From NCBI GenBank assembly GCA_034190085.1, contig JAXHTS010000038.1:1-46870 (forward strand): DNA of 46,870 bases, read 5' to 3'. Shown in pieces: positions 289 through 39,695 of the stretch. Both the position numbers and the translations under genes were made by a program. Each line of letters begins with the position of its first letter. Within the stretch, counting starts at the first letter, position 1. Source of the DNA: Spirochaetota bacterium. Its GTDB lineage: Bacteria; Spirochaetota; UBA4802; JAFGDQ01. Below the pieces are notes generated by a model, which was given only the letters and a program-made list of their open reading frames with translations, had not been told where the DNA came from and did no database searches.

Positions 289-2913
289 ATGGAAAAGAAA
301 AATACTAATCTATCTGACAAAATAGGTACATCAAATAAGCTCAACAATATGAGAAGGCTCGTTGAGATTACTAATATAATAAACTCTACCCTCGATATTA
401 ACAATCTCCTTATTACAATAATGGAGATGATCAAAGAGATTATGGAGACTGATACGAGCACCCTCTTTTTATATGAAGAAGAAACCGGCGATCTTGTCTT
501 CAAGGTTGTGCTTGCTAAGGCAGGACGGGAATTACAAGAGAAGAGCAGGGTGAAGATCGGGCAAGGGATTGCAGGTTGGGTAGCTAAGAATAAAAAGATT
601 ATCTATATTAACGATGTCTATAATGACGAAAGATTTGACCCCTCCTATGATAAACAGACTGGCTACATCTCAAAATCAATTCTATGCGCGCCACTCTTAT
701 ACAAGGATAAATTGTTGGGTGTAATCCAGGCTATAAATCCTATAAAAAAAGAATACTTTGATGATCAGGATGATATTGAACTATTTGAGGCTTTTGCAAA
801 TCAGGCTGCTATTGCCCTTGAGAATGCTTCGCTATATGCGAATCTGGAAAAAAAGGTAGCCGAGAGAACATCAGAACTGGCTGAGGCTAATAAAAAGCTG
901 AAGGATCTTGATATCGCAAAGACAAATTTTTTTGCTAATATTTCTCATGAACTAAGAACACCGCTTACCCTTATTCTATCACCCATAGAAGCGATCATAC
1001 AGGGTGATTATGGGAATAATCTAAAAAATGACGATGATATCCTTAACTCAGTATATGAAAATGGGATCAGGTTACTCAAACTTATCAATAATCTGCTTGA
1101 TTTCTCAAAGATCGAAGCTGGCAAGATGTCACTGAAGAGAAGGAAGTCAGATATTTCAAAACTTATTAGGCACTATAGCTCAAGCGTTATCTCAACAGCA
1201 GAGAATATAGGTCTTACAATAAAATTTGTAGATAATACTGATGGTGTAATTACATGGGTAGATCAAAATCTATTTGAGAAAGCTGTTTTTAATCTAATCT
1301 CAAACGCCTTAAAATTCACACCAGCCGGCGGCCTCATAGATGTGCAATTAGATGGAAATAAAGATAAGTTTAACATCTCTATAAAAGATACTGGGATTGG
1401 GATACCGAGGGATAAACTCAATACAATCTTCGAACGATTCAGTCAGGTTGATTCCTCTCTCTCTCGTCAATATAGCGGCACTGGAATAGGTCTATCATTT
1501 GCAAAGGAGATCATAGAACTACACAAAGGCACAATTGAAGTGGAGAGTGAACTCGGTAAGGGCTCAGTCTTTACCATTTCCATGCCTATATTGAATTCCC
1601 CAGACATAGACCATAATGATTCCTCTGATGGGAATGGCTCATTTATTTCCAACAATAACCACAATATAATTGGTGAGATAAATCCCTATCTGTGGGAGGA
1701 CAGGGGTGATGTGATGGGATCACCCTCTCTTATAAAAGATGACAAAGCATATCAACCGAAAAAAAAGAGAACAATTTTAATTGTTGATGACAGCCTAGAT
1801 ATGCTGAAATTTTTGCATACTCTACTTAACCGTGAATATAACGTTTTCAGCGCCATAAACGGAAAGGAAGCATTACAAAAGCTCTCCAAGGGAGATCTTA
1901 AACCTGATCTGGTTATAGCGGATATTATGATGCCTGAGATGGATGGTTATGAATTAACAGAGGCTATAAGATCCATATCCAGATTAGAGGGTCTGCCAAT
2001 AATTCTCCTTACAGCCAAGGCTGATATACCAATGAAAGTTAAGGGTATTAAGAAGGGCGCCAATGATTATATTGTTAAACCCTTTAATCCTAAGGAGCTT
2101 TTAGCCAGGGTCGATTCTCAGATAGAACTGAAAATTCTAAGAGACAGATTGATAGAGGCCAATAGGATACTAAAGCAAACATTAGAGGATTCATCAATTC
2201 TGGTTTCAAATTTCGGACATAAAATATTTCATGAATTATGGCCATTTGCAAAGATGATAATGGTGGGCAGTAGATTGATAGAAGAGATTGAGGTAAACAA
2301 TGTATTGATGGATAAAGATGATTTAGACTTTGCAAGGGAAACCATTGCAAAATGTGAGGGGAGCCTTGAGAGATTTGAGATAATGAAGGAAGAGATCAAA
2401 AGGAACTTTGGGAAACGGAGCGATAAAATCTATAATAAGATCAAATATATTCTTGAAGATATATTGAATGATTTTAAAGAAATATTCATTGATAATAATA
2501 TTACACTGGAGACCAACCTTGATCTCGACAGCACAAGGGAGATAAAAATAAATTCTGAGCAGATTCAAATAGCCTTGGAAAATTTATTAAATAATGCTGT
2601 CCATGCCCTTAACACTATAGGGGAAAATAAAAATGATAAGAAGATAATTATTAATGCATCATTTTCTGGGGAGGATTTATTATTAACCATTGAAGATAAC
2701 GGCCCTGGAATACCAGAAGAAGCAAGAAAGAAAATTTATGATATGTTCTATAGCCATAAGGATAATGGGAGCGATAAAGGAGTTGGTCTTGGGTTATTTA
2801 TAACACGATGGATAATTGAGGATTGCCATAAGGGAACAATTGAGGTAGATAGTAAAGTAGGTAAATTTACAAAATTTGCTATAACCTTACCTACAGATGG
2901 GGATTTTGTATGA
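289..2913 (+). CDS. Multi-domain hybrid histidine kinase (GAF-HisKA-HATPase-REC-second kinase module)
   Basis: Cytosolic sensor kinase of 874 aa with no membrane segment. Domains in order: GAF sensor (about 24-180), short coiled coil, HisKA with H-box ISHELRTPL (His220), HATPase (about 315-430; N-box NLISNALKF, G-boxes DTGIGI and GTGIGLS), and a receiver (about 493-615, Asp545 in ADIMMPEMDG, Lys in VKPF). A second dimerisation/H-box-like segment follows (FHELWPF, His648), then a second HATPase (NLLNNAVHAL, EDNGPGI, GVGLGL). Two complete kinase cores around one receiver is unusual and suggests an internal phosphorelay. The stop codon overlaps the ATG of the sigma-54 activator downstream, so the pair is translationally coupled and this is the likely cognate sensor. 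The ATG has no clear Shine-Dalgarno; Met21 at 349 is a possible alternative start. Ligand of the GAF domain unknown. Confidence 0.9.
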   Translation: MEKKNTNLSDKIGTSNKLNNMRRLVEITNIINSTLDINNLLITIMEMIKEIMETDTSTLFLYEEETGDLVFKVVLAKAGRELQEKSRVKIGQGIAGWVAKNKKIIYINDVYNDERFDPSYDKQTGYISKSILCAPLLYKDKLLGVIQAINPIKKEYFDDQDDIELFEAFANQAAIALENASLYANLEKKVAERTSELAEANKKLKDLDIAKTNFFANISHELRTPLTLILSPIEAIIQGDYGNNLKNDDDILNSVYENGIRLLKLINNLLDFSKIEAGKMSLKRRKSDISKLIRHYSSSVISTAENIGLTIKFVDNTDGVITWVDQNLFEKAVFNLISNALKFTPAGGLIDVQLDGNKDKFNISIKDTGIGIPRDKLNTIFERFSQVDSSLSRQYSGTGIGLSFAKEIIELHKGTIEVESELGKGSVFTISMPILNSPDIDHNDSSDGNGSFISNNNHNIIGEINPYLWEDRGDVMGSPSLIKDDKAYQPKKKRTILIVDDSLDMLKFLHTLLNREYNVFSAINGKEALQKLSKGDLKPDLVIADIMMPEMDGYELTEAIRSISRLEGLPIILLTAKADIPMKVKGIKKGANDYIVKPFNPKELLARVDSQIELKILRDRLIEANRILKQTLEDSSILVSNFGHKIFHELWPFAKMIMVGSRLIEEIEVNNVLMDKDDLDFARETIAKCEGSLERFEIMKEEIKRNFGKRSDKIYNKIKYILEDILNDFKEIFIDNNITLETNLDLDSTREIKINSEQIQIALENLLNNAVHALNTIGENKNDKKIIINASFSGEDLLLTIEDNGPGIPEEARKKIYDMFYSHKDNGSDKGVGLGLFITRWIIEDCHKGTIEVDSKVGKFTKFAITLPTDGDFV

Positions 2914-4745
2914 ATATATTGATATTTGATGATAGAAATGAATTTGCCTGTATGCTATCTGATTACATTAGAGAAAAACATGAAGTAATTATTGCTGATT
3001 CTTTAGTATTGACAAAGGAAAATATATTACGAAATGGCATTGATATAATAATAGCTTCCATAAGGGATAGTAATAATAACAATACGGGTATTGAATTACT
3101 TAAGATCATTAAGGCCTCTGCAATTGAAATTCCAGTAATTATGACCGGGACAAAAGAGGATATCACTCAAGCAGTTGATTGTTTTAGACTCGGCGCGCTG
3201 GATTGTGTTGATAAAACAGAAATTGATGATACCAAAATAAATAGCTTAATAGAGAAGGCAATAGATGCGAGGAGCAAAGAGGGTGAAAGAGATCAAAGCT
3301 CAAGGGTTGATTTTAACATCTTATTTATTGATGATAACATTGAATTTACTGATGCAATAAAGTTCCATTTTGGAAAGAGATACAGGATAGACGTATCGAA
3401 TGATTTTAATTTAGCAAGGGATATAATTGATAGCAATAAATATGATTGCATCTTTTTAGATATTCGAGATGAGATGAATAACGATGAACTTGCTGGTATT
3501 AAACTTCTAAAAGAATTGATGTCCAATGATGAAGATGTTCCTGTAATAATGCTCACCGGATGGGGGGAGATGTCAACAGCAATAGAATGTCTTAAACTCG
3601 GCGCTTATAACTTTTTGGAAAAATCCATAAAGATTTTTGATACCCTAGAGATGATTGCCAATGTGATTGAAGAGCTAATTCAAAAGAATATAAAGGATAA
3701 CAATATTCATAAAAAGTCATTTAGATACAGGGTTATTGATATCATTGGAGAATGCAGGTCCATAAGGGATATTCGAGAAGAGATAATTGAGGTTGCGGAT
3801 GAGGAAGTGCCTGTTCTAATATATGGAAAAACAGGAACAGGTAAAGAGGTTGTATCATCAGCAATCCATGTGGCAAGTTCACGCAGGGATTCCCCCTTTG
3901 TTGAGGTTGATTGTGGTTCCATACCGGAATCTATTTTTGAGAGTGAACTCTTTGGATATGTTAAGGGGGCATTTACAGGAGCAGTAGATCAGCGAAAAGG
4001 AAAGATTGAATTAGCAGACAAGGGCACACTATTTTTAGATGAAGTTGAGAACATCTCTCTGGAGCAGCAGGCGAAGCTGTTAAAGGTTCTGGAGGAAAAA
4101 AAGATATATCCTCTGGGAAGCAATAAAGAGAGAGAGGTGGACTTCAGATTGATATGCGCTACTAATGTTGATCTCTTTAAATTGGCTGAAGAGGGGAAAT
4201 TTCGTCAGGATCTATTGTATCGAATAAATGTATTTCAGATAGAATTGCCGCCATTAAGGGAGCGCGGTGAAATGGATATTGATCTTTTAATTAGACATTT
4301 TGTATCCTTAAAACAAAACAGCTTAATAGAAATAGAAAAATACGCCCTCCAGCTTTTAAAAAAATATGATTGGCCTGGAAATATTAGGGAGCTTAGAAAC
4401 ATCTTAACGAAACTTGAGATAATAGCAAGGAGGAACAATAATAATGTAATATCCGTTGACATTGTGAAAAGCGGTTTCATGAAATATAAAAAGGATAGGA
4501 TTAATGTTGATCATCTGCTAAAGGATTTAGTTGATTATTATAATGGAAATGTGCCGAACATGCTACGAGAATATGAGGATATGGCAGTTCTGGAAAGCTA
4601 TAAAAATTTTAATAAAAACATCTCAAAAATAGCCCAAAAGATATATAAGGAAACACCTGAAGATAATAAAAATTATCGAGGAAGGGTACGAAAGGTTTTG
4701 GAAAGGAATATGCATCTGTTGAATGATCCCTTATCGTTGGAGTGA
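2910..4745 (+). CDS. Sigma-54-dependent response regulator with two receiver domains
   Basis: NtrC-family transcription activator of 611 aa. The first receiver (about 1-120) has Ser50 where the phosphoacceptor Asp should be (IIIASIRDS), so it looks like a pseudo-receiver. The second (about 132-255) is canonical, with Asp184 in FLDIRDE and Lys in EKS. An AAA+ domain follows (about 280-500) with Walker A GKTGTGKE (306-313), the sigma-54-contacting GAFTGA loop (353-358), Walker B GTLFLDEV and an LRERGE segment. The C-terminus carries a Fis-like helix-turn-helix candidate (NISKIAQKIY). Its ATG overlaps the kinase stop as ATGA, so it is translated with that kinase. Its target promoter is not evident here; I found no convincing -24/-12 site between 4746 and 4955. 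Confidence 0.9.
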   Translation: MNILIFDDRNEFACMLSDYIREKHEVIIADSLVLTKENILRNGIDIIIASIRDSNNNNTGIELLKIIKASAIEIPVIMTGTKEDITQAVDCFRLGALDCVDKTEIDDTKINSLIEKAIDARSKEGERDQSSRVDFNILFIDDNIEFTDAIKFHFGKRYRIDVSNDFNLARDIIDSNKYDCIFLDIRDEMNNDELAGIKLLKELMSNDEDVPVIMLTGWGEMSTAIECLKLGAYNFLEKSIKIFDTLEMIANVIEELIQKNIKDNNIHKKSFRYRVIDIIGECRSIRDIREEIIEVADEEVPVLIYGKTGTGKEVVSSAIHVASSRRDSPFVEVDCGSIPESIFESELFGYVKGAFTGAVDQRKGKIELADKGTLFLDEVENISLEQQAKLLKVLEEKKIYPLGSNKEREVDFRLICATNVDLFKLAEEGKFRQDLLYRINVFQIELPPLRERGEMDIDLLIRHFVSLKQNSLIEIEKYALQLLKKYDWPGNIRELRNILTKLEIIARRNNNNVISVDIVKSGFMKYKKDRINVDHLLKDLVDYYNGNVPNMLREYEDMAVLESYKNFNKNISKIAQKIYKETPEDNKNYRGRVRKVLERNMHLLNDPLSLE

Positions 4746-11089: not shown

Positions 11090-12742
11090 CTATACTCTAT
11101 ACAATCCCGCGATCTCTTCATCTGCAGGATGCCTGACAGTGAATGAATATATGAATTCCATCTTTTCACCTGGCTTGATATCAAACTCCTTTTTTATAAT
11201 ACCCCATTCATCAGGTTCTTGGAAATCGTTTCCTTTGGTTACTTTTACTTCAATCTCTTTATTCTTGCTTACAGGAATCCGCTCAAAAAGCTTAATGGTT
11301 TCTTTTTCATCCTTAAAAGATTCTATTGTAATCTTATAGGTAAACTCTATGCTTGTATCCTTGCCAGTTAGTCCTTTTTTACCCTTTAGCTGGTTGACCA
11401 GTTCCCTTTTTACACGGATGCAGTCGTCAGTGCCCATATAGAGTTTTAACTTCTCACCAGGGACGATGGTCTTAATCTGTGAATCTCCTGTATAATCAAA
11501 ATCACGAAAAACCTTTACAGGTCCAGAAAGCAGGGGATAATCGCATGTGTTCTCCATAATGATCCGAAGATAGGCAGCCTCCTGGATTGCAGGCATGACG
11601 ATGTATTCATATTCAACTGGAAAGCGTTCCATGGTGATAAAGACCTTCCTGGCCGTGCCGTCGGTCGGAATATTCTGAGAAGCACCGCAGGCAAAGGTAA
11701 CGTTCAACCCTGATGTCTTTACCTTTGATACCGCGAAAGTCTTATCAGTAACCTCAGCGACCTCGCTGCTCATATCAGGTTCAGCCACCGACATCTCTGC
11801 TGCGTCTTCCATCATCTCTATCTCATCTTCATATTCCTCTTCAGGATATTTATCTTCATGTCTCTTTGACTTCTTTGATACGGATGCTGATCTCATTGCC
11901 GGCACCTGAATAGGAGGCGGCGATTCATACAAATTAATATACCATGGCTCAGGGTCAGGCAGATGTGCTCCTGAACTCGGGTTTGCTGTTGAAAGATCAA
12001 GCCCAACATTATCCCAGTCCTCGCCTGTCATCTGTGTAACCTCCGCGTAGCTCACAAGCTCAAATTGTCTCTCTTTATAGATAAGCCGCCCGTCGTAAAG
12101 CGGAGACCAGGATGCGCTGGGCACAACATATGAAAGACGAATATATGCGTCTCCTGATGACTTCATCCTGAAGCTGACACAACATTCAACAGATGTCCTG
12201 CCAGATGCTTCCTTGAGCTTGTCCGCATAATAATAGAGGTTTTTGCTCTTTTTTTTAAGTTCTCTTCTTTTAACCTCAAGAGCCAGCCTATCATTCCTAA
12301 ATGCCTTTGATTCTTTCCCGTAATATTCAATAAACTCCTGGTAATCTGCAGAACTGGCCTTTTCAAAATTTAAATCCTTAGGATCAGCGATATCCTCATT
12401 AAAATTAAGGCAGTTTAAATAGGATATAAGGATCTCTAACTTCTCAATTTCTCTGCTTACAAATTCCAACTCTCTCTCAATCCTGTATATCTCATTTTCA
12501 ATTCTATTAAGCTCTTCAATATTCGTGTCCCTGAGCGCGATATCGCAGAGATTATTATCAAGGAGCACCATCTCTCCGGCTCCCTTAACCCTTATTGAAT
12601 CTCTGAGCAGGGATGGTGTGAGGTCGCTAAAGCTGTAAGTCTGCTCTCCTGTAAGATTCTTTAGCTTCACTTCTCTTGTTATCATTGCCCTGTCTGAATA
12701 TACACAAACCCGCATTATTATGTTTTTGGTTTCAATGCTCAT
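11090..12742 (-). CDS. DUF4139 (mucoidy-inhibitor MuiA-like) protein, second copy
   Basis: Protein of 550 aa. An N-terminal DUF4140-like beta region (VCVYSDRAMITREVKLKNL) is followed by a helical coiled-coil segment (about 75-185), then the DUF4139 core recognised by SYVVPSASWSPLYDGRLIY, TGEDWDNVGLDLSTANPS and PLLSGPVKVFRDFDYTGDS. A strongly acidic low-complexity insert (about 300-340, EEEYEDEIEMMEDAAEM) interrupts the core; its paralog upstream is shorter there. No signal peptide. The molecular role of the family is not established; the name comes from a mucoidy phenotype of a homolog. Its ATG overlaps the stop of the upstream paralog by 4 bases. Confidence 0.85.
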   Translation of the reverse strand: MSIETKNIIMRVCVYSDRAMITREVKLKNLTGEQTYSFSDLTPSLLRDSIRVKGAGEMVLLDNNLCDIALRDTNIEELNRIENEIYRIERELEFVSREIEKLEILISYLNCLNFNEDIADPKDLNFEKASSADYQEFIEYYGKESKAFRNDRLALEVKRRELKKKSKNLYYYADKLKEASGRTSVECCVSFRMKSSGDAYIRLSYVVPSASWSPLYDGRLIYKERQFELVSYAEVTQMTGEDWDNVGLDLSTANPSSGAHLPDPEPWYINLYESPPPIQVPAMRSASVSKKSKRHEDKYPEEEYEDEIEMMEDAAEMSVAEPDMSSEVAEVTDKTFAVSKVKTSGLNVTFACGASQNIPTDGTARKVFITMERFPVEYEYIVMPAIQEAAYLRIIMENTCDYPLLSGPVKVFRDFDYTGDSQIKTIVPGEKLKLYMGTDDCIRVKRELVNQLKGKKGLTGKDTSIEFTYKITIESFKDEKETIKLFERIPVSKNKEIEVKVTKGNDFQEPDEWGIIKKEFDIKPGEKMEFIYSFTVRHPADEEIAGLYRV

Positions 12743-14280
12743 ATGTTAAGACCCACAATTGATTTGTCTACAGGATATTCCACGTAATATTCCAGGTTCA
12801 ATTTCTTCTTATCCTGCGAGTCAATATCTACATTCCAGATAAGCACTCCCTTGTAGTCAGGATTGATGCTATCCGTAACCTCTGTAAGCTGCACCTTCAA
12901 TTCCTTGTTTTGCGATATTGGTACCCTCTCCTCAATGGCAACCTTAACTTCTTCCTCTTTATAGTTCTCAAGGGTAATAGTATATCTAAAAATCGTGCGA
13001 GTTAATCCCTTCATAACGCCCTTTTGCTGAGTAAAATGCTTCAGCAATTCACGCTTAACCTTAATTGAATCATCAGATCCAAGTGAGAGCTTTGCTTTCT
13101 CCGATGGAACAGTAGTTTCCAGAAAACTATCTCCAATATAGTCCTGATTATGATAAACTTTGACAGATCCTGCCAGCAGGGGATATTCTGTTGTGTTCTC
13201 AAACATGCCGCGAATGAATACGGATTCTATCATTTCTGGGAAAGCGCGGTAATACAGCTCAACAGGGAAGCGCTGCTTAGCTATCAAGACCTTCTTTTCC
13301 GTGCCATCTGGAGGAAGTTTCTGGCTGTCCTTAATGCCGAATGTAACGCTAAGTCCCTTATTGAGCGATGCTGATATAATCTCCGATTCTTCTCCTATTG
13401 GCTCAGGAGCAGCAGCCCCATAGGGAGCGCTCTTTTGTACCCTGTCATCATAATCCATATATCCAAAGTCGATAAACCACGGCTTTAATTCAGGCAAAGT
13501 TGCTGATACCTCCGGCCGGGCTGTGGAGAGGAAGAGCTTCACATCCTCCCAATTCTCACCTGTAGATTGAGAGACACGGCCATAATAGAATATCTCAATC
13601 TCTTTTTCGGTAATATTAAGCCTGGCATCATAAACAGAAGACCAAGAAGCATTGCCAATAACATAGGTTAGGTAAAAAGAGAATTTACCGGGCTTCTTCA
13701 CATCAAGAGAGATATAGCAGTTCACTACTTCCTTGCTTCTCATGCTGCTCTTTCTGGACAATTCCGCTTTGGCCCTTGCTATTTCCTTTTCTATCTCAAA
13801 TTTTTTATCTTCCAAATCCATGATTGTCATATCAATTCTTTCAATATTAGATTTGATGAAGTTAAAAATGTTCGAAATATCACTCATGTCAGTCTTCCTA
13901 AAATAGAATTCTGTGGCAAAGCGCGAGGATGATAGATTCTGTACACCTTTTATAATCTCCTTCTCCATGTTAAAAGAATCAATGCTGGAATTTATCCATG
14001 AAAGTTTATCCTGAAGCTCCTCCAACTCCTTTTCCTGCTTGATTATCTCCTCATCCTTTAAGATTTCAAGGTATTCATCCCTGATATCAATGCCCTCTAT
14101 ACGGATCTCGGCATTGCCCTTGCCGGAAATTCTTATTGTGTTACGATATATACCTGAAGGCAGATTATCAAAAAGAATCTCCTTTGTATCAGGCGTTACC
14201 TGAATTTCTATCTCTCTACTAACGAGAGCCCTGTCTGGATAGACCGTAGCTTCAATTATATTACTTTTCTTCTCATTCAT
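12739..14280 (-). CDS. DUF4139 (mucoidy-inhibitor MuiA-like) protein, first copy
   Basis: Protein of 513 aa with the same layout as its downstream paralog: N-terminal DUF4140-like region (ATVYPDRALVSREIEI), central coiled coil (about 80-175) and DUF4139 core (LTYVIGNASWSSVYDARLNI, TGENWEDVKLFLSTARPE, PLLAGSVKVYHNQDYIGDS). It is first in a two-gene minus-strand operon joined by an ATGA overlap. The copies are clearly related but diverged at the protein level, so the duplication is old. Two tandem paralogs suggest a hetero-oligomer or diverged specificity; that is inference. No signal peptide, so cytoplasmic unless exported by another route. Confidence 0.85.
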   Translation of the reverse strand: MNEKKSNIIEATVYPDRALVSREIEIQVTPDTKEILFDNLPSGIYRNTIRISGKGNAEIRIEGIDIRDEYLEILKDEEIIKQEKELEELQDKLSWINSSIDSFNMEKEIIKGVQNLSSSRFATEFYFRKTDMSDISNIFNFIKSNIERIDMTIMDLEDKKFEIEKEIARAKAELSRKSSMRSKEVVNCYISLDVKKPGKFSFYLTYVIGNASWSSVYDARLNITEKEIEIFYYGRVSQSTGENWEDVKLFLSTARPEVSATLPELKPWFIDFGYMDYDDRVQKSAPYGAAAPEPIGEESEIISASLNKGLSVTFGIKDSQKLPPDGTEKKVLIAKQRFPVELYYRAFPEMIESVFIRGMFENTTEYPLLAGSVKVYHNQDYIGDSFLETTVPSEKAKLSLGSDDSIKVKRELLKHFTQQKGVMKGLTRTIFRYTITLENYKEEEVKVAIEERVPISQNKELKVQLTEVTDSINPDYKGVLIWNVDIDSQDKKKLNLEYYVEYPVDKSIVGLNI

Positions 14281-15031: not shown

Positions 15032-16411
15032 TTGAAAAACGAAAAACTATATACCGAATTGTCCTTTGAAGAATGGGAAATAAAGGATCGGGTAGACTGG
15101 TTCATCTTTCTACGATGGCTAGCAATATTTGGGGCTATATGCACGATCCTTTTCGCAACACAAATATTGAAAATAGAATTACCAGTTTTCAAGCTTTTTT
15201 TTATAATTTTTATAATGATTATCTATAATATAGTTTTTTCTCTGTATTCACTTCTTTTTTTTAAAAAAAGAATTGATACCATTGGAGTTAAAGCATCTAT
15301 TCGATTCGCAACTATTCAGATCATTGTTGATCTATTTATTCTTACTCTAATAATTCATTTTTCAGGTGGAGTAGAAAATCCATTTAGTTTTTATTATATT
15401 TTTCATATACTCATTTCCAGCATTCTCCTTTCAACTAAACAGGCCTATTATCAGGCAAGCATCGCTATAATTTTGTTTGCTACAAACACTGTTCTTGAAT
15501 CATATGAAATAATTCCTCATTTTTCTCTTGGTATAATAAATGAGGCCCCTCTTTATAAAAATAAATATTATTGCATAAGCATATTTTTTGTTTTTGCGAC
15601 TACTATGTATTTATCTGTCTATATGACAACATCAATAACCTCTAAGCTAAGAAAGAGAAGGAATGATATTATTGATTTGAAAAATGAGTTAGAACGGAAA
15701 AATGAAGAGTTAAAGGAAATACAGGAGAATTTAATCAAATCTGAAAAACTAGCTGCTGTTGGAAATCTGGCGACTGGTGTCGCTCATCAAATAAATAATC
15801 CTTTAACCACAATTTTAACATTTTCACTTCTTTCATTGAAAAAGACCACAGATGAAAACACAAAAAAGAAGCTTGAGGTGATTGTAAATGAAACAACCCG
15901 TTGTAGAAATATTATTAGAGACCTTCTGAACTTTGCAGGAATGAATGAACCCCAATTAAAAAGAAGTAATATTAATGGATTAATTGAAAAAGCATTATTG
16001 CATATACAACTATATGATTCGAAGATTGATATTCAAAAAAAAGTATCCGATGATCTACCTGAAATACTTATTGATTCAAATCAAATACTTGAGGTTATTA
16101 TTAATATTATTACCAATGCTATAGAGGCTATGCCGGATGGAGGAAGGCTTACCATTGTAACAAGGTTGACTGTAAATAGGAAGTATGTTGTAATTGAATT
16201 TATTGATAATGGATATGGAATTTCAGAAGAAAATATGGGAAAAATTTTCAATCCCTTTTTTACTACAAAAGATAAGGGAACTGGATTAGGTCTCGCTGTT
16301 GCACATGGCATTATTCAAAAGCATGATGGGATTATTGATGTTAATAGTGAAAAGGGTAAGGGGACCACATTTATAATAAAATTATTAGTGAACCATGAGG
16401 TTAATGATTAA
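15032..16411 (+). CDS. RegB/PrrB-like membrane histidine kinase with quinone-binding motif
   Basis: Sensor kinase of 459 aa. About six hydrophobic helices fill residues 25-205. Between them stands GGVENPF (112-118), a match to the GGxxNPF heptapeptide that binds quinone in RegB/PrrB redox kinases. A coiled coil (about 212-240) leads to HisKA with VAHQINNPL (His252) and HATPase (IITNAIEAMPDGG, DNGYGIS, FFTTKDKGTGLGLAV). The kinase core is of the NtrB/AtoS kind, matching the NtrC-type partner. Start is TTG at 15032, supported by AAGGTG at 15019-15024. Its TAA overlaps the regulator ATG by one base (TAATG). Inferred function: reports quinone-pool redox state to the sigma-54 activator that follows. 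Confidence 0.88.
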   Translation: MKNEKLYTELSFEEWEIKDRVDWFIFLRWLAIFGAICTILFATQILKIELPVFKLFFIIFIMIIYNIVFSLYSLLFFKKRIDTIGVKASIRFATIQIIVDLFILTLIIHFSGGVENPFSFYYIFHILISSILLSTKQAYYQASIAIILFATNTVLESYEIIPHFSLGIINEAPLYKNKYYCISIFFVFATTMYLSVYMTTSITSKLRKRRNDIIDLKNELERKNEELKEIQENLIKSEKLAAVGNLATGVAHQINNPLTTILTFSLLSLKKTTDENTKKKLEVIVNETTRCRNIIRDLLNFAGMNEPQLKRSNINGLIEKALLHIQLYDSKIDIQKKVSDDLPEILIDSNQILEVIINIITNAIEAMPDGGRLTIVTRLTVNRKYVVIEFIDNGYGISEENMGKIFNPFFTTKDKGTGLGLAVAHGIIQKHDGIIDVNSEKGKGTTFIIKLLVNHEVND

Positions 16412-17835
16412 TGTTTGTCGCAAAAATTATTGTAATTGATGATGAAGTACATATATGTGAGAGTTGTCAAGAGATACTTACAGATGATGGGCATTGTGTA
16501 AAAACTTTTACCGATCCAATCAATGCATTACAGCATATAAATAAGGAACATTGCGATATTGTACTTCTTGATTTGAAACTACCTCATATGGATGGATTAG
16601 AGGTATTAAAACAATTAAAGGAAAAATATCCTGAATTAATTGTAATTGTTATAACTGGTTTTGCTACAATAGACACTGCCGTGCAATCGATGAAGCTTGG
16701 TGCTTATGACTATGTTAGAAAACCATTTACACCTGATGAACTCAGTGAAGTCGTGAAAAGAGCTGTCGAAAATATTAAAATATTACTCGAGGTTAAATAC
16801 TTAAATGAAGAATTACAAAAGAGTTACGAGTTAGACACTATTGTTGGTGAAAGCGAAGCAATAAAAAGAGTTTTTGCACTTGTAGAAAAGGTCGCTCCAA
16901 CCGATACAGATGTATTAATATTTGGTGAAAGTGGAACCGGAAAGGAATTGATTGCCCGTGCAATATATAAGAGAAGTATACGGTCTGATAAAAAATTTGT
17001 TGTTATCGATTGTGCATCCCTTGCTCAATCACTTGTTGAAAGCGAGTTATTTGGTTATGTTAAAGGTGCGTTTACCGGTGCAGCAACTTCAAGGGAAGGG
17101 CTTTTTGAGATTGCAGATGGAGGCACAATTTTTCTTGATGAAATCACCAATATTTCGCTTGAAGTTCAGGCAAAATTACTCAGGATCCTTCAGGAAAGGG
17201 AATTTAAAAGGGTTGGTGATACGAAGAGTAAAAAACTGAATATTCGATTTATATCCGCAACGAACAGAGATCTGGAAGAATTGATAAAAGAGGGAAAGTT
17301 CAGAGAAGATCTCTATTATCGGCTTGATGTCTTTGCAATATTAATCCCATCCCTGAGGGAAAGAAAGGGGGATATTCCTCTTTTATGTGATTATTTTATC
17401 AAAAAATTTTCTCATAGAATGCATAAGGATATTAAGGGAATCAATGATGCTGCTCTAGAAATTCTCATTAACTATAGTTGGCCAGGAAATATACGGGAAT
17501 TGAAGAATATTATTGAAAGGCTTGTTATATTGTCAGGAACACAAATTATCAACGAACATGATGTTACATCTATTATGGGGGAGAAAACAGTTAATAACAT
17601 TTCAAATGTATATAAAATTGGAGATGTGGGTTTGACTATGCCTACGACATATAAGGAGTTAAAAAAATTAAAAAATAAGATTCAAGGTGAAATAATTGAT
17701 AATGTAGAAAAAAAATTTTTACTTAATGCCTTACATAAAACAGGATGGAATATAACAAAAGCTGCTGAAATAACAGGAATCCTTCGACCAAATCTCTACA
17801 CCTTGTTGAAGAAACATAATATTGTTAAAGAGTAA
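16411..17835 (+). CDS. NtrC-family sigma-54-dependent response regulator
   Basis: Enhancer-binding protein of 474 aa. A canonical receiver (about 5-120) has Asp54 in LLDLKLPHMDG and Lys in RKPF. The AAA+ domain (about 143-385) carries Walker A GESGTGKE (172-179), GAFTGA (219-224), Walker B GTIFLDE and LRERKGD. The C-terminal Fis-type helix-turn-helix is ALHKTGWNITKAAEITGI, with recognition helix near RPNLYTLLKK. It is coupled to the RegB-like kinase by a TAATG overlap and is therefore its likely partner. Tandem palindromes 195 bases downstream and a sigma-54 promoter 550 bases downstream make the 18452-20966 operon its obvious target. Confidence 0.93.
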   Translation: MFVAKIIVIDDEVHICESCQEILTDDGHCVKTFTDPINALQHINKEHCDIVLLDLKLPHMDGLEVLKQLKEKYPELIVIVITGFATIDTAVQSMKLGAYDYVRKPFTPDELSEVVKRAVENIKILLEVKYLNEELQKSYELDTIVGESEAIKRVFALVEKVAPTDTDVLIFGESGTGKELIARAIYKRSIRSDKKFVVIDCASLAQSLVESELFGYVKGAFTGAATSREGLFEIADGGTIFLDEITNISLEVQAKLLRILQEREFKRVGDTKSKKLNIRFISATNRDLEELIKEGKFREDLYYRLDVFAILIPSLRERKGDIPLLCDYFIKKFSHRMHKDIKGINDAALEILINYSWPGNIRELKNIIERLVILSGTQIINEHDVTSIMGEKTVNNISNVYKIGDVGLTMPTTYKELKKLKNKIQGEIIDNVEKKFLLNALHKTGWNITKAAEITGILRPNLYTLLKKHNIVKE

Positions 17836-18029: not shown

Positions 18030-18067
18030 TGTATATCGACCTATACATCTGTATAATACACTATACA
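18030..18067 (+). promoter_or_regulatory. Two tandem TGTATA-N6-TATACA palindromes: candidate enhancer for the NtrC-type regulator
   Basis: TGTATA at 18030-18035 and TATACA at 18042-18047 form one 18-bp palindrome; TGTATA at 18050-18055 and TATACA at 18062-18067 form a second with a different 6-base centre. The centres are exactly 20 bp apart, two helical turns, so two dimers would bind on the same face. They lie about 330 bases upstream of the sigma-54 promoter, in range for DNA looping. Confidence 0.75.
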
Positions 18068-18136: not shown

Positions 18137-18204
18137 GGGTGTTATTTTTATAAAATTGTAGCTTTTCAAACAGTTTCAGGCTAATTATTATTGAAATAAC
18201 ACCC
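18137..18204. repeat. 11-bp inverted repeat in the sigma-54 regulatory region
   Basis: GGGTGTTATTT at 18137-18147 pairs exactly with AAATAACACCC at 18194-18204 across 46 bases. It stands between the enhancer palindromes and the sigma-54 promoter. It could be a binding site for an auxiliary protein, a hairpin ending the upstream transcript, or a remnant of a small mobile element. Confidence 0.5.
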
Positions 18205-18383: not shown

Positions 18384-18400
18384 TTGGCATATAGATTGCT
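18384..18400 (+). promoter_or_regulatory. Sigma-54 (-24/-12) promoter
   Basis: TTGGCATATAGATTGCT matches the sigma-54 consensus TTGGCAC-N5-TTGCW, with the invariant GG at 18386-18387 and GC at 18398-18399, exactly 12 bases apart. The start of transcription would fall near 18411, about 40 bases before the ATG at 18452. The upstream regulator gene and tandem palindromes strengthen the call. Confidence 0.8.
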
Positions 18401-18451: not shown

Positions 18452-18874
18452 ATGAAGGCAATAGGTTATGTAAAAGATATTTGTACATCAACAGGTGAAG
18501 TAATCACAAAAGAAGAGCAGAAGGAAAAAATAATCCAATATGCAAAATTAAATAATGTCAATCTCATTGGTATTCTTGAAGAAGATGACAGTATTCCAGA
18601 AGCTATTCTTGACAGAGCTGAAGTAAAAAAAATATTACAGATGGCTGGCGAAATTGATACAGTAATCGTTGAACGTGTATGGTGCTTCTCAAGAAAATAT
18701 GGAGAGGTAGTGACTTGTCTTGATGAACTCTATAAGATTGGAATAAAAATTGTATCTGCATTAACTATGTGGGACTGCACATCGCAAAAAGTGCGACATT
18801 ATTACTATAAAAGGAAGGACGAACAAATTGAATTGAATTTACCCATGAATAAAGTCTATAAGAAAGGTGCTTAG
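18452..18874 (+). CDS. Degenerate serine-recombinase (resolvase)-fold protein, DNA-binding domain absent
   Basis: Protein of 140 aa. Its plan follows the resolvase N-terminal domain: KAIGYVK, then QKEKIIQYAKLNNVNLIGILEED, then DTVIVERVWCFSR, then ELYKIGIKIVSALT. The catalytic serine expected right after the first strand (YxRVS) is replaced by YVKDICTST, although an Arg remains in FSRKYGE. No C-terminal helix-turn-helix or zinc domain follows, only a short basic tail, so recombinase activity is unlikely. Start at 18452 is fixed by AAGGAGG at 18440-18446; the frame could open at 18419 but without a ribosome site. It heads the sigma-54 operon with the Fe-S oxidoreductase; its role there is unknown. 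Confidence 0.75.
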   Translation: MKAIGYVKDICTSTGEVITKEEQKEKIIQYAKLNNVNLIGILEEDDSIPEAILDRAEVKKILQMAGEIDTVIVERVWCFSRKYGEVVTCLDELYKIGIKIVSALTMWDCTSQKVRHYYYKRKDEQIELNLPMNKVYKKGA

Positions 18875-18911
18875 GGGAAATGCAAGTTAATAAATCAACA
18901 TGGAGGCTATA

Positions 18912-20966
18912 ATGGATCATTCACTAACACTTCGCATTCCTACGCCAATGTATATAATTTTGATATGTACAGCAGTGTTTTTTATCTACAATATGTATAA
19001 AAACAACATATCACTATACATTGCAGGCAAGGAAGATAAATCAAGATTTAATAATATTTTTAAAAGAGTTAAATTGGTATTAGAGGAAATCTTTTTGTTA
19101 AAAAGAATGAGAGGGAATAAATATGCGACCATATTTCATGTTTTCATTCTATATTCCTTCATTCTGCTCGTGGGTACCAAGTTTATTGAAGCGATAAGCG
19201 CAAATACACCCATAAATGCAGAGGTAGGAATAATCGGTAAGATTATTCCCCCTATCCAATTTATTGCCGGTTTTTTTATGCTTTCAGGATTTGTCATTAT
19301 GCTAATAAGAAGATTTATCCTGAAACCAGCTTATCTCGAAAATACTGGCAATAAATTTGATATTTTATTTTTTGGATATGTGGGAATGATGGTTTTTATA
19401 AGCATACTCCTAAGCGGGATGAAAATATATTATGAGGGACATGGGGAATTTGTTTGGTATTCACCATTTGGATATTTAGCATCTTTTATGTTTTCCTCAA
19501 TCCCGAAGAGTAACATACAGTCAATATTCCAGGCATTATGGATTACAGAGATATTCGTGATGTCTGTAGGTTTGATGTTTGTTTATACCTATTCGCGATT
19601 AAAACATGCTTTTCTGATTCCTGCAAACATTTTCTTTTCATCCCTGAAACCAAAGGGATCCCTTTCAAGATTTGATATCGAAGAAAAATTTGAACAAATG
19701 GGGGATGATGAGGAATTCGAGATCGGCAACGCAACAACATCCGATTTTACATGGAAGCAGCGGCTTGACCTAGACGCATGTATCGAATGCGGAAGATGCG
19801 AGAGCCTCTGCCCATCCTATAATACAAATCAAATATTATCCCCCAAAAAAGTCATACGTTCCCTGCGGGAAGCAGTAAGAGAAAAAGATAGTAATGGAAA
19901 GGAATTAATCGGCTCTGCAATTACCGAAAATGATATTTGGCTCTGCAGAACATGCCGTGCATGTGAAGAAAATTGTCCTGCTTATATTGAACATATTGAT
20001 TTGTTTATGGAATTACGAAGAGCAGAAGTTGCAATGAAAGGCGCTCTTCCCGCGGATGCAGCTCGTGCTCTGAAGGATTTGCAAATGAGGGGTAATCCCT
20101 TTGGGCCGCAGGATGACAGGGTGCAATGGATGATATCCGAAAATATGCCCATTGTGCGTGAAGGGGATGAGGTGGATGTTTTATTATGGATAGGATGTTG
20201 CTGTGCATTTGATTCAACAAAGCATCAAGTTATACAGGATTTACGGCGGATACTCGAAACTGTCAACATGTCCTATGGCGTTTTGGGTGGAGATGAGAAA
20301 TGCTGTGGTGATCCTGCTCGGGTTCTAGGTGATGAAGCAACATTCCAGATGATTGTTAAGGAACAGATCGAATTAATCAATTCCAGAAAATTTAATAAAA
20401 TGCTTGTTATCTGTCCCCATTGCTACAACAATTTCAAAAATGAATATCCGCAGTTTGGTGCAAACTTCGATGTCGAGCATCACACAACATTTATATATAA
20501 TTTATTGCGTGATAAAAAAATTAATCTTGTTAACGAAATTGATGCCAAAGTTTCATATCACGATCCCTGTTATTTGGGACGATACAATGATATATATGAT
20601 GAGCCTAGAAAAGTATTATCATCAATTGATGGATTGAAGATAACAGAATTTAAGAATTCAAAGCAAAAAAGTTACTGTTGTGGTGGAGGTGGAGGTCATT
20701 TCTGGATGGATCTTGATATGGAAATAGGATCTAAGTCGCGTATAAATATTGAAAGGGTAAACGAAGCATATGATCATAATGTCGATACAATAGCCACCGC
20801 GTGTATATTTTGCAAACAAATGCTTGAGGACGCGGTAAAGATGAACGACCTTGATAATAATCTTAGCGTTGTCGATATCGCAACACTTGTTGTAACTGCA
20901 ATGGGAAAGGAGGAAGATGAGAAAATAATGCCAATGCCTTTGCCAGAAATAAAAAAAGTATCGTAA
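18912..20966 (+). CDS. Membrane Fe-S oxidoreductase, HdrD/EMO-like (ETF:quinone oxidoreductase type)
   Basis: Protein of 684 aa. Residues 1-255 hold five or six TM helices with His residues placed as in NarI-type heme b domains (for example FHVFIL and RLKHAFLIPANIFF). Two [4Fe-4S] motifs follow, CIECGRCESLCP (from about 290) and CRTCRACEENCP. Two CCG domains come next: WIGCCCAFDS, KCCGDPAR, CPHCYNNFK and then HDPCYLGRYND, YCCGGGGGHFW, ACIFCKQML. This is the layout of HdrDE-like proteins and of EMO, the ETF:(methyl)menaquinone oxidoreductase of anaerobic acid oxidisers. Inferred role: electrons from acyl-CoA dehydrogenases to the quinone pool, or the reverse. No etfAB is in the window. ATG at 18912 is preferred over 18900 because GGAGG (18902-18906) precedes it. 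Confidence 0.85.
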   Translation: MDHSLTLRIPTPMYIILICTAVFFIYNMYKNNISLYIAGKEDKSRFNNIFKRVKLVLEEIFLLKRMRGNKYATIFHVFILYSFILLVGTKFIEAISANTPINAEVGIIGKIIPPIQFIAGFFMLSGFVIMLIRRFILKPAYLENTGNKFDILFFGYVGMMVFISILLSGMKIYYEGHGEFVWYSPFGYLASFMFSSIPKSNIQSIFQALWITEIFVMSVGLMFVYTYSRLKHAFLIPANIFFSSLKPKGSLSRFDIEEKFEQMGDDEEFEIGNATTSDFTWKQRLDLDACIECGRCESLCPSYNTNQILSPKKVIRSLREAVREKDSNGKELIGSAITENDIWLCRTCRACEENCPAYIEHIDLFMELRRAEVAMKGALPADAARALKDLQMRGNPFGPQDDRVQWMISENMPIVREGDEVDVLLWIGCCCAFDSTKHQVIQDLRRILETVNMSYGVLGGDEKCCGDPARVLGDEATFQMIVKEQIELINSRKFNKMLVICPHCYNNFKNEYPQFGANFDVEHHTTFIYNLLRDKKINLVNEIDAKVSYHDPCYLGRYNDIYDEPRKVLSSIDGLKITEFKNSKQKSYCCGGGGGHFWMDLDMEIGSKSRINIERVNEAYDHNVDTIATACIFCKQMLEDAVKMNDLDNNLSVVDIATLVVTAMGKEEDEKIMPMPLPEIKKVS

Positions 20967-34875: not shown

Positions 34876-37269
34876 ATGACTAATAATAATTACATAACTC
34901 GAATTAATGAGAGGTTGGCGTTATTAGTAGAATGGATACTCAGTTATCGATTGCTATTCATCATTTTATGCATCATCTTTTTTATTGGAGGGGCTTACTT
35001 AACACTATCACTACGGGTTGATAATTCCATAACAGTCTATTTTAAGGATAATGACCCCTCCCTTCAATTTTATCAAAAATTCAAAGAAGAATACGGCAAT
35101 GATGAGTTTTTATATATTGTATACCGAATTAAGAAGGGGGTATTTAATCTGGATTCCCTAAAAATAACTGAAAAGCTAGTAGAAGAACTCGAAGGAATAG
35201 AATATGTTAAAAAAGTAAAAACCATTACCAATATTGAGTTAATTGAAGGCAATAGAAATGGCGATTTGAATATTTACAATATCAGGGATAAGTTCCCATC
35301 TACTCAGCTTGATGCAGATCTTTATATGCATAGGCTTCAAGATAAGCCGCTATATGCAAATGCCTTTATCTCCGAGAACGCAGAGTTCGCAGCAATTCTC
35401 TGTGAGATTGGAGACACACCAAAGGGCGATCCAGGCTATCAGTCAGAAATAGGTTCAGGTTTACAGCGGATATTATCCAAACAAGAGTTCAGTGATTTTG
35501 AATTCTGGCCAACTGGACAGCCTGTAATCGTTTCAGCAATTAACGATGCAGTTATAAAGGACGTTATGCTCTTTACACTTATTTGTGTTATCGTCCTTAC
35601 AGCGCTACTCTTTCTTTTCTTCCGCAAAGTTAAAGAGATTCTTGCATTTAATATAATATATCTACTCGGTCTGATTTCTGTTATTATATTGCTGTGGATG
35701 AATGACTACCCAATTACTACCTTTACCTGCATAGCGCTACCCCTGTTATTTGCCATTTCTACAGCAGACGGAGTTCATATTATCCATGAGTATCAGACAT
35801 ATCTTAAAGCTGGGAATCCCAATAGGGAATCTATTCTTAAAACAATTAAACTGGTAGGATTCCCCTGCTTGTTCACAACACTCACAACAGTAGCAGGATT
35901 TGCTTCCCTTACTATCTCACCTATTCCTTGCATTCATGAATTTGGATTGACTATCGCAGTTGGAGTATTGGCTGTCTTTATTTTCAGTTTTACACTCTTG
36001 ACAATATTCCTTTCTTTTGGAGGGGAAAAGAGTGAAAGGTTATATCATTCATACCAACAATTTGAAAGAGATAAGGAGAAAAGAGATTATGAATACATCC
36101 ATAAATATATGGATGTAATGCTACAAAGAATAACAGATTGGGATAAAAGATACTATAAAAGAATATTAACTTTAGCTGTAATAGTATGTATGATTGCTTT
36201 TTATGGAATTAGCAAAATCAAGACTGATGCATCATGGTTAGCTGTACTCGGCGAGAAGATGAAGGTATTTCAGGATTATAAATTCGTTGACTCAACCATG
36301 GCAGGGTCTGGGAATTTTGAGATATTATTGGACACAAAAAAGAGAGACGGAGTTAAAACATTACAATCAGTTCAAACCCTTGAAAAAATTCAAAACTTTG
36401 CTAATAGTCAGGATTATCTGGTTAAAAAGACATTTTCAGTAGTTGATATTATCAAAGATATTAATTGCGCACTGCATAACAATGATCGTGAATATTATAG
36501 GCTTCCTTCTTCGGATGAGGAGGTATCCCAGTACATCCTGCTCTATGAAGTTACCGGAGGAGAGGAACTGGAAAAACAAATATCAGCAGACGTTTCAAGT
36601 GCAAGACTTACAATCTATGTAAAAAACACTAACACAACAATCTCAAAGCGCTTCTATGATGACCTGGTAGCTTTTATTGAATCTGTTAAACCGGCTGATT
36701 ATACATATACAATAACAGGTTTATCTTTTATGGTACTTGAGTCTTTGCGCACCATGCAAGAGACTCTGATACTATCTATTATGCTTGCCCTGGCCATTAT
36801 TTCAATTATGATGATATTTGTTTTCCGTTCACTAAAGATTGGGCTCATTTCTATGCTCCCTAATATCTTCCCAATTATTATTACCTTAGGAATTATGGGG
36901 CTATTTGATATTAGTCTGGATTTTTCAAGAACTCTACTTGGGTGTATTGGAATAGGTCTTGCTGTTGATGACACCATACATCTTATTTCGAGATATCGGC
37001 TTGAATTTGATCGACTTGGAAATTACAGGAAGGCGCTTGACGCAGCGATTATTGGGGTTGGTCATGCAATTACAAGGACCACTATCATATTGATCATTGG
37101 ATTTGGCGCTTGTCTCTTTTCCAATTTTGAAGCTTTGGTTAGTTTCGGAATGATAACAGCGATATGCGTCTTTACCGCTCTGATAGCTGATTACTTTATC
37201 GCTCCTGCACTTATACTTGTTTTCAAACCCTTTGGGAAAGAATTTGATACAGGGAAGGTAGTAGAATGA
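34876..37269 (+). CDS. RND superfamily (MMPL-type) exporter, intact
   Basis: Membrane protein of 797 aa with the two-fold RND layout. There is a TM helix at about 25-45, a large periplasmic loop, five or six TM helices (about 225-375), then the same pattern repeated (about 435-790). Conserved TM4-type signatures STADGVHIIHEY and GLAVDDTIHLISRYR occur once in each half. Proteins of this group move lipids, hopanoids or other hydrophobic molecules across the inner membrane using the proton gradient; substrate unknown. It is more diverged than the two copies that follow. Its TGA overlaps the ATG of the next copy (ATGA), indicating an operon. Confidence 0.88.
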   Translation: MTNNNYITRINERLALLVEWILSYRLLFIILCIIFFIGGAYLTLSLRVDNSITVYFKDNDPSLQFYQKFKEEYGNDEFLYIVYRIKKGVFNLDSLKITEKLVEELEGIEYVKKVKTITNIELIEGNRNGDLNIYNIRDKFPSTQLDADLYMHRLQDKPLYANAFISENAEFAAILCEIGDTPKGDPGYQSEIGSGLQRILSKQEFSDFEFWPTGQPVIVSAINDAVIKDVMLFTLICVIVLTALLFLFFRKVKEILAFNIIYLLGLISVIILLWMNDYPITTFTCIALPLLFAISTADGVHIIHEYQTYLKAGNPNRESILKTIKLVGFPCLFTTLTTVAGFASLTISPIPCIHEFGLTIAVGVLAVFIFSFTLLTIFLSFGGEKSERLYHSYQQFERDKEKRDYEYIHKYMDVMLQRITDWDKRYYKRILTLAVIVCMIAFYGISKIKTDASWLAVLGEKMKVFQDYKFVDSTMAGSGNFEILLDTKKRDGVKTLQSVQTLEKIQNFANSQDYLVKKTFSVVDIIKDINCALHNNDREYYRLPSSDEEVSQYILLYEVTGGEELEKQISADVSSARLTIYVKNTNTTISKRFYDDLVAFIESVKPADYTYTITGLSFMVLESLRTMQETLILSIMLALAIISIMMIFVFRSLKIGLISMLPNIFPIIITLGIMGLFDISLDFSRTLLGCIGIGLAVDDTIHLISRYRLEFDRLGNYRKALDAAIIGVGHAITRTTIILIIGFGACLFSNFEALVSFGMITAICVFTALIADYFIAPALILVFKPFGKEFDTGKVVE

Positions 37270-39556
37270 ATAAGCTTATTGAATTCACTTTTAAATATTG
37301 GAAATGGATCCTAGGGATAAATGTACTTTTGACTCTTATTCTTGGTTACTTCATTTTAGGAATAAAGGTAGATAATTCCATCGAAACCATGTCCGTAGAT
37401 GGCGATCCAGAGCTTCTCTTGCTGCAGAAGACGGAGAAAGAGTATGGGGGAAATGAATTTGTTGTGGTTTCGTTCAAGGGAGATGATATCTTCACTACTC
37501 CTGTTCTTGCTATGATTGAGAGGATAACTACCAGGATAGAGGATGTTAAAAATGTGGAAAGGGTATTAAGCCTTACAAATTCTTCGACTATTGAAGGCGA
37601 CTCAGAGGGATTTGGCGTCTATCCTTTACTTAAAGAATCATCTCTGCAATTGAAGAAACCAGAGGAGCTTAGAAAGGAGGTAATTAATAACAGGATATAT
37701 AAAAGATGGCTCTATTCTGAAGACGGAAAATCAACATCTATAATTGCTTGGATAGTTCCAATGGGAAAAGATGATGCAGCAAGATGGAGGGTTGTAGATG
37801 CAATTAAGAATATAATTGATGAGGAAAAAGACAATAGAAAGTTTTATCTATATGGCATGCCTGTGTATCAAAAAGCCATTATGGATGCTATGATCAGGGA
37901 TCAATTTCATCTCACCCCTATCGTACCTTTTCTAATGGGTCTCTTGTTATTCTTTTTCTTTCGTGATATAAAATTGTTAACCATTCCATTTATATTAATT
38001 GGAATATGCGCCCTTTGGGCATTCGGGCTTCTGACTCTATCCAGTAATACGTTAAATTATGTCACTAACATACTTCCTATCGTTTTGCTTATTGTCTGTA
38101 TATGCGACTCAGTTCATATTATGACTCATTATAAAGAGATTAATAAAGATTATATACACAGAAAAGATGCCTTAAAGGATGTTATCATACGCATTGGTAT
38201 TCCCATAATGTTAACCAGCATTACAACCGGGGTAGGATTCTTCTCCCTGGGAGCAGTGGTATTAAGCCAGTAAGGATTTTTGGTATTTTTACTGGTCTTG
38301 GCATCCTTTTTGCGTTTACAGTCTCCATTACGCTTCTCCCATTGATTATGTCAATTATGAACTTCAAAGAAGAAAAGTCTGGAGAAGATAGAAGCTTTAA
38401 GGCATTGGAGAGAATTCTTAATAGAACAGGAGGGTTAGTATACAGGAGAAAGGGCTTAATTCTAATAAGTATTGCCATTGTTCTGATATCGTTAATCGGC
38501 ATGTTTAAAATTGAAGTAAGGCAGGATATCATTGCTATGCTTAAAGATAGTACTGAAATAGATGAGGCCCGTGCTTTCATAGATGTTGAGCTTGGAGGTT
38601 CATGCGAGCTTATTACGCTGTTTGAGGGCAAGGGAGAAAATTCAGTTATTGAGCCGCAAAATCTAAAACGAATAGAAAGGATACAGCATAGACTAATAAC
38701 AGAAGTTCCAGAAATACGAAAGAGTATCTCTATCGTTGATTTTCTTAAAGAGATGAATCAAGCCGTTAACGGGGATGATCCGGATCACTATACACTACCT
38801 ACGACTAAAGAACTCGCTTCACAACTGCTCTTACTATATTCCTTTGATGAAGATCAGGCAAACCTTCAATCGCTTATAAACAATGATTATAGCCAGGCAA
38901 GGATTAGAATGTTTAGTCTTAGCGCTGATGATTCAATAATTTCAAGGGCAGCCTTTGATAAAGCTGAAAGAATCATATTAGAGGAATCAAAAGGGACTAA
39001 CTTAAAGATAAATCGCACAGGAAGACCAAAGATTTTTTTCAATATGGTGGATATATTGATTACAGCTATGGTGAAGAGTTTTTCCTACGCCTTTGTAGTA
39101 ATCTTTATCATGATGGTTATAGTTTTTCGTTCTTTTAAGCTGGGCTTGTTAAGCATGATCATAAATATCATACCTGCTATAATAACATTCGGGATTATGG
39201 GGTGGCTGGGTATCCCACTTAATTTGATGACAGCAATGGTACCAAGTATTGCCATTGGGATTGCAGTTGACGATACGATTCATCTTATATGGAGAATAAA
39301 AAAAGAAATTGGTATTGATGGAAATTATAGAGAAGCTATTTTCCGCAGTTTAAGGAGTGTGGGAAAACCTATAATTACAACATCAGTTTTAATTTCAGTT
39401 GGATTCGCTGTCTTTTACTTTTCTGAGATAGTACTACTGACCGAGTTTGCATTTCTTACAATTGCCACTGTTGTTGGTGCACTTATTACTGATCTCTTTT
39501 TAGGCCCGGTATTGGTTTTAATATTTAAGCCAATTAAGATCCCAAAGGGAGAATGA
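37266..39556 (+). pseudogene. RND/MMPL exporter with a one-base frameshift
   Basis: The first frame (37266-38273, 335 aa) matches the 39696 gene closely, then ends SLGAVVLSQ-stop. The second frame resumes at once with IKPVRIFGIFTGLG and runs to 39556, including the IAVDDTIHLIWR motif. Aligning with the intact paralog, one base is missing near 38251-38262 (five bases where the paralog has six). Without it the product would be about 763 aa, a normal length. Its DNA is very similar to 39739-42020, so it belongs to a tandem duplication about 2.44 kb long. The change could be a real mutation or a sequencing error. Confidence 0.85.
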
Positions 39557-39603
39557 TGAATTGTAACGGAGTGGTGTTTGCTGTGTTCGGCGTTATTAGC
39601 TTA

Positions 39604-39695
39604 TTATTTATGGGTATATGAGTAAAGTCTGAATGAAAAAAGAGGAAAGTTATGAAGAAAATACTTTATAAACTTCTCAAATATCTTTTAATAAT
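39604..39695 (+). pseudogene. Scar of a duplicated LolA-like gene start between MMPL copies
   Basis: GGTATATGAGTAAAGTC and the following bases, with ATGAAGAAAATAC at 39652, match the sequence just before and at the start of the LolA-like gene (42022-42087) at an offset of about 2.42 kb. The copy breaks off after some 10 codons and runs into the next MMPL gene. It is a remnant of an MMPL-LolA duplication followed by deletion. Confidence 0.6.

Follow-up and report, generated by a model that had tools for sequence, protein, structure and literature searches.

Two palindromes with identical arms, TGTATA-N6-TATACA, lie in tandem between an NtrC-type regulator gene and a sigma-54 promoter in a Spirochaetota bacterium. 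The pair probably serves the promoter at 18385 as an enhancer (upstream activating sequence), where two dimers of the regulator encoded at 16411-17835 would bind and activate the operon at 18452-20966. Binding, the identity of the binder, looping, and activation are what we infer from the arrangement of sites and genes in the window, i.e. the whole stretch of 46,870 nucleotides that was analyzed. The switch that it would form for one neighboring operon is most likely real but of an ordinary kind. Through it, an otherwise unassigned two-component system can be linked with one specific promoter and operon of a genome that is little known, and an exact, testable candidate binding site is provided. 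The general picture is unchanged, since tandem TGT...ACA palindromes before sigma-54 promoters are already well-known enhancer sites.

Two palindromes with identical arms share nearly one DNA face

The two palindromes are the following:

18030-18047: palindrome 1, arms TGTATA and TATACA, spacer TCGACC (TGTATATCGACCTATACA); predicted activator dimer site
18050-18067: palindrome 2, arms TGTATA and TATACA, spacer ATACAC (TGTATAATACACTATACA); likewise a predicted activator dimer site, starting 20 bp after palindrome 1 does

Both match TGTATA-N6-TATACA with zero mismatches, and a repeat search gave a start-to-start distance of 20 bp, exactly as an earlier note on this DNA had described (two copies with different centers and 20-bp spacing). 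The same note had placed them exactly two helical turns apart, which was too strong. At 10.5 bp per turn, 20 bp is 1.9 turns, or about 36 degrees less than two full turns; the two palindromes are on nearly the same DNA face, not exactly in register.

The copies differ at five positions (7-11), all within the 6-bp spacer, and at none in the arms. If changes were spread evenly over the 18 positions, differences confined to the spacer would have P = 7e-4. Since the arms are identical and the spacer has diverged, selection appears to have acted on the arms and not on the spacer, the pattern of a protein-binding site. Such arm-only conservation would be expected of protein-binding sites rather than of plain duplication. 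A function as RNA hairpins was rejected because the stems are weak (-2.4 and -2.6 kcal/mol).

The setting between an NtrC-type gene and a sigma-54 promoter was also borne out. The pair begins 195 bp past the stop of the regulator gene (at 17835) and is 328-348 bp upstream of the GG of the -24 element. The intergenic region that holds both the pair and the promoter is 616 bp long and 27% G+C. It also has a 17-nt direct repeat (17989/18413), which was set aside since such repeats occur at shuffle level.

The pairing, not the single word, exceeds chance

According to the earlier note, the chance of finding two such palindromes was very low. This stood for the pair and did not stand for the single word. 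Three perfect copies of TGTATA-N6-TATACA were found in the 4.27-Mb genome versus 3 for a reversed-pattern control, and 39 one-mismatch copies versus 34. The word is neither rarer nor commoner than background; it is the pairing that exceeds chance. The pair is the only one in the window with identical 6-bp-arm palindromes and an equal gap within 60 bp. When identical-arm, equal-gap pairs within 60 bp were sought in 60 third-order Markov sequences of the window's length, none was found, and a first-order model with the AT-rich intergenic composition gave about 0.00025 identical palindrome pairs per 616 bp. Although the single word is at background frequency, this expectation (for any identical palindrome pair) and the arm-only conservation make chance pairing in AT-rich intergenic DNA barely credible.

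A genome-wide scan for the motif, put forward earlier as a way to define a regulon, did not yield one. No second tandem pair was found, the tandem 38-mer pattern having a single occurrence in its own genome. Two of the three perfect copies are the pair itself, and the third, on contig C83, is within a long coding frame with a repeated VTGYTEG motif. The one-mismatch copies were mostly coding, and none was accompanied by a strong sigma-54 site that is clearly a promoter, so a regulon defined by genome scan was rejected. Also, no site with fewer than three mismatches was found upstream of the kinase gene at 15032, where autoregulation of the kinase and regulator genes would place one.

Outside this genome, the tandem pattern had few matches in 59 related genomes and 393 genomes of the phylum, all with 2-3 mismatches and mostly simple repeats. 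Two of these matches were examined in context and adjoin unrelated genes; conservation of the tandem element elsewhere was rejected.

A full-consensus sigma-54 promoter precedes a presumed two-gene operon

The promoter and the presumed target operon are as follows:

18385-18400, + strand: sigma-54 (-24/-12) promoter, TGGCAT-N5-TTGCT (TGGCATATAGATTGCT), 11/11 consensus positions
18452-18874, + strand: first gene of the presumed target operon, 140 aa, serine-recombinase N-terminal-domain-like (Pfam Resolvase, E 5e-7)
18900-20966, + strand: second gene of the presumed target operon, membrane-anchored Fe-S oxidoreductase

Scored against the consensus TGGCAY-N5-TTGCW, 18385-18400 is the best match in the window and the only one to reach 11/11. 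Across the genome, the strict consensus was found at 14 sites versus 1 in the control, and the sigma-54 gene itself (rpoN) is encoded on contig C83.

The 140-aa protein has no recognizable DNA-binding domain and its N-terminal motif is atypical. No relative of it was found in the 393 phylum genomes or in plasmids; its nearest matches are phage serine integrases, at about 32%. The product of 18900-20966 has a TM region, a 4Fe-4S dicluster, and two cysteine-rich CCG domains, and is heterodisulfide-reductase/TfrB-like. The gene after 20966 is on the opposite strand.

Further along the window, 34876-42020 holds several MMPL/RND-like transporter genes in a row, some apparently duplicated (37266-38273/38342-39556 and 39696-42020); the pair 37266-38273/38342-39556 looks like a single gene split into two frames.

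The adjacent genes encode a kinase and an NtrC-family regulator

Upstream of the pair are two genes in the same direction, their frames overlapping by one base (16411):

15032-16411, + strand: sensor histidine kinase (Pfam 6TM_PilS, HisKA, HATPase_c)
16411-17835, + strand: NtrC-family response regulator / sigma-54 activator (Pfam Response_reg, Sigma54_activat, HTH_8)

The kinase has a PilS-like membrane domain, an H-box (HQINNP), and the N, G1, and G2 motifs, and is likely the partner of the regulator. The regulator carries the three parts of a group I (response-regulator) enhancer-binding protein. Its receiver (PF00072, 1.2e-29) has DDE and LLDLKLP motifs and a D54-type phospho-acceptor Asp. 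Its AAA+ domain (PF00158, 2.9e-70) has Walker A (GESGTGKE), Walker B (GTIFLDE), and GAFTGA, and its C-terminus is a Fis-type helix-turn-helix (PF02954 HTH_8, 1.7e-7, residues 430-468). NtrC-family relatives of the protein are present in PDB. The best family scores were those of AtoC, NtrC, and the PEP-CTERM regulator, each under its equivalog cut-off (437 of 714 bits for AtoC), and the regulator is therefore none of these named regulators.

In the genomes searched, no ortholog of the regulator closer than about 52% was found. Since neither the regulator nor the first gene of the operon has a close ortholog there, no phylogenetic footprint was possible. The closest paralog in the genome, on contig C55 (49%), differs in its recognition helix, and no such palindromes lie near it.

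Two other parts of the window upstream of the kinase gene were noted. The gene at 2910-4745 encodes a sigma-54-activator-like protein with two receiver-like N-terminal regions in tandem and adjoins a hybrid histidine kinase gene (289-2913), and the two adjacent related genes at 11090-14280 (550 and 513 aa) resemble a tandem duplication.

The pair as a probable enhancer

In the mechanism that we propose, the kinase would phosphorylate the regulator, and two regulator dimers would dock side by side on the palindromes, on almost the same side of the helix. The bound dimers would form an AAA+ oligomer, the DNA would loop across the roughly 330-350 bp between palindromes and promoter, and the GAFTGA loop would touch the sigma-54 RNA polymerase, leading to promoter opening. 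The operon at 18452-20966 would thereby be switched on.

Several findings support the pair as an enhancer. It is beyond chance and unique in the genome, its arms are constrained, and the motifs of the regulator are intact. The 11/11 sigma-54 site is within the same 616-bp intergenic region, so that the features of a sigma-54 promoter with an enhancer are found together: a -24/-12 element, rpoN in the genome, and tandem same-face palindromes upstream. Against an enhancer, the distance of 328-348 bp from the -24 GG is longer than usual, and no clear consensus match to an IHF bend site was found between the palindromes and the promoter.

Loci of homologous regulators were also informative. At about 110 of them, 6 tandem palindromes were found in 64 kb of intergenic DNA versus 0 in shuffles, and 1 of the 6 adjoins a sigma-54 site. 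Tandem palindromes near homologous regulators indicate that the architecture is ordinary, though the motif differs between regulators. In a Thermodesulfovibrionales MAG, a homologous-regulator locus (near 1195) has a tandem TGACA-N5-TGTCA, 35 bp apart, beside a sigma-54-type site, and this pair is likely a comparable activator site.

Another contig carries a palindrome with the same arms

A palindrome with TGTATA/TATACA arms and a spacer of 7 is present at C27:9623-9641, where the arms are perfect over 10 bp (AAAGTGTATA-TAATTAT-TATACACTTT). The sigma-54 promoter downstream of it, at a distance of 306 bp, scores 11/11 (C27:9311-9326) and precedes a response-regulator gene and genes that look NADH-dehydrogenase-like (NuoE/NuoF-type, a naming from sequence features alone). 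No enhancer-binding protein was found among its neighbors in the 7 kb examined (C27:6000-13000). This palindrome may mark a second target, which we take as a weak lead.

A more unusual redox switch can be imagined from these parts. In it, the two-component system would act through an enhancer about 340 bp away, with a strongly folding spacer between, to turn on a membrane Fe-S oxidoreductase and a resolvase-fold ex-recombinase, and the C27 promoter would share the site at a variant spacing. We consider this combination quite improbable.

Alternative explanations

The pair could be an enhancer of the same sigma-54 promoter and yet be bound by another enhancer-binding protein, such as that of 2910-4745 or one from elsewhere in the genome. 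At least 27 matches to this regulator's class are present, so a different regulator could bind, and the one at 16411-17835 is a candidate binder. The C27 palindrome, with its 11/11 promoter and no enhancer-binding protein in the 7 kb around it, also fits another binder. However, the kinase and regulator genes are directly adjacent and co-directional, and in the one genome for which a detailed map exists, regulators commonly neighbor their targets (PMC4641369). Another binder is therefore conceivable but unlikely.

Between the pair and the promoter is a second structured element:

18137-18204: strong imperfect inverted repeat / hairpin, with 17-nt arms at 18137-18153 and 18188-18204 (repeat search and fold)

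Its predicted fold is -21.6 kcal/mol (z -5.15), and no shuffle was as good. It matched no Rfam family, and the genome holds no further copy. It may be a transcript, a DNA structure that shortens the loop, or a relic of another element. Just downstream of the pair, it could be part of an unrecognized transcript, which would suit a different explanation: that an unrelated dimeric factor (a repressor of the TetR, MarR, or LacI type, or another factor) uses the pair as its operator and controls an unrecognized promoter or small RNA in the 616-bp region. Repressors also use tandem 18-bp palindromes. This explanation is rather improbable, since no gene for such a regulator is adjacent, sigma-70-type matches there are about as many as chance would give (9 vs 8.4), and the Rfam search gave no family.

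Resolvase res sites contain inverted half-sites, and the 140-aa protein of 18452 matches a resolvase N-terminal domain; its lack of a recognizable DNA-binding domain, its atypical motif, the single occurrence of the motif pair in the genome, and the absence from the genome of the second copy of the region that a mobile element would leave make a recombination site very improbable. A mobile-element copy of the intergenic region was likewise rejected.

Comparison with known systems

The enhancer proposed here resembles several characterized sites. The TyrR box of E. coli is TGTAAA-N6-TTTACA, and the GcsR sites of P. aeruginosa are three tandem 18-bp repeats of TGTAACG-N4-CGTTCCG, where GcsR binds the tandem copies at a sigma-54 promoter beside its own gene (PMC4894688). 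The TyrR box is an 18-bp palindrome like the present sites, with the TGT...ACA ends 12 bp apart in both, and TyrR and GcsR have the same AAA+ domain as the regulator at 16411-17835. However, the arms TGTATA have one change per arm compared to TGTAAA, and the TyrR model covers only residues 132-384 of the regulator (236 of 576 bits). The regulator is a phosphorylation-type response regulator with a receiver domain and is not TyrR-like. Also, GcsR has three sites, whereas the present locus has two, at about 340 bp from the promoter. Regulators of the NtrC, AtoC, and ZraR type share with the present one the receiver, the AAA+ domain with GAFTGA, and the Fis-type helix-turn-helix.

In Desulfovibrio, groups of enhancer-binding-protein motifs have TGT and ACA half-sites 9, 11, or 12 bp apart, the regulator genes in many cases adjoin the target promoter, and most regulons comprise 1-4 operons (PMC4641369). 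In D. vulgaris, the largest group of promoters is within 100 nt of its sites, and a distance of more than 300 bp is reported for only four. The two-component enhancer-binding proteins of D. vulgaris are like the present locus in their TGT/ACA half-sites and, often, in having the regulator beside its sigma-54 promoter; the organism and the target differ, and most of their sites are closer to the promoter than the present ones. TGT-N12-ACA in tandem is a documented geometry of enhancer-binding proteins, known from TyrR, GcsR, and several Desulfovibrio regulators.
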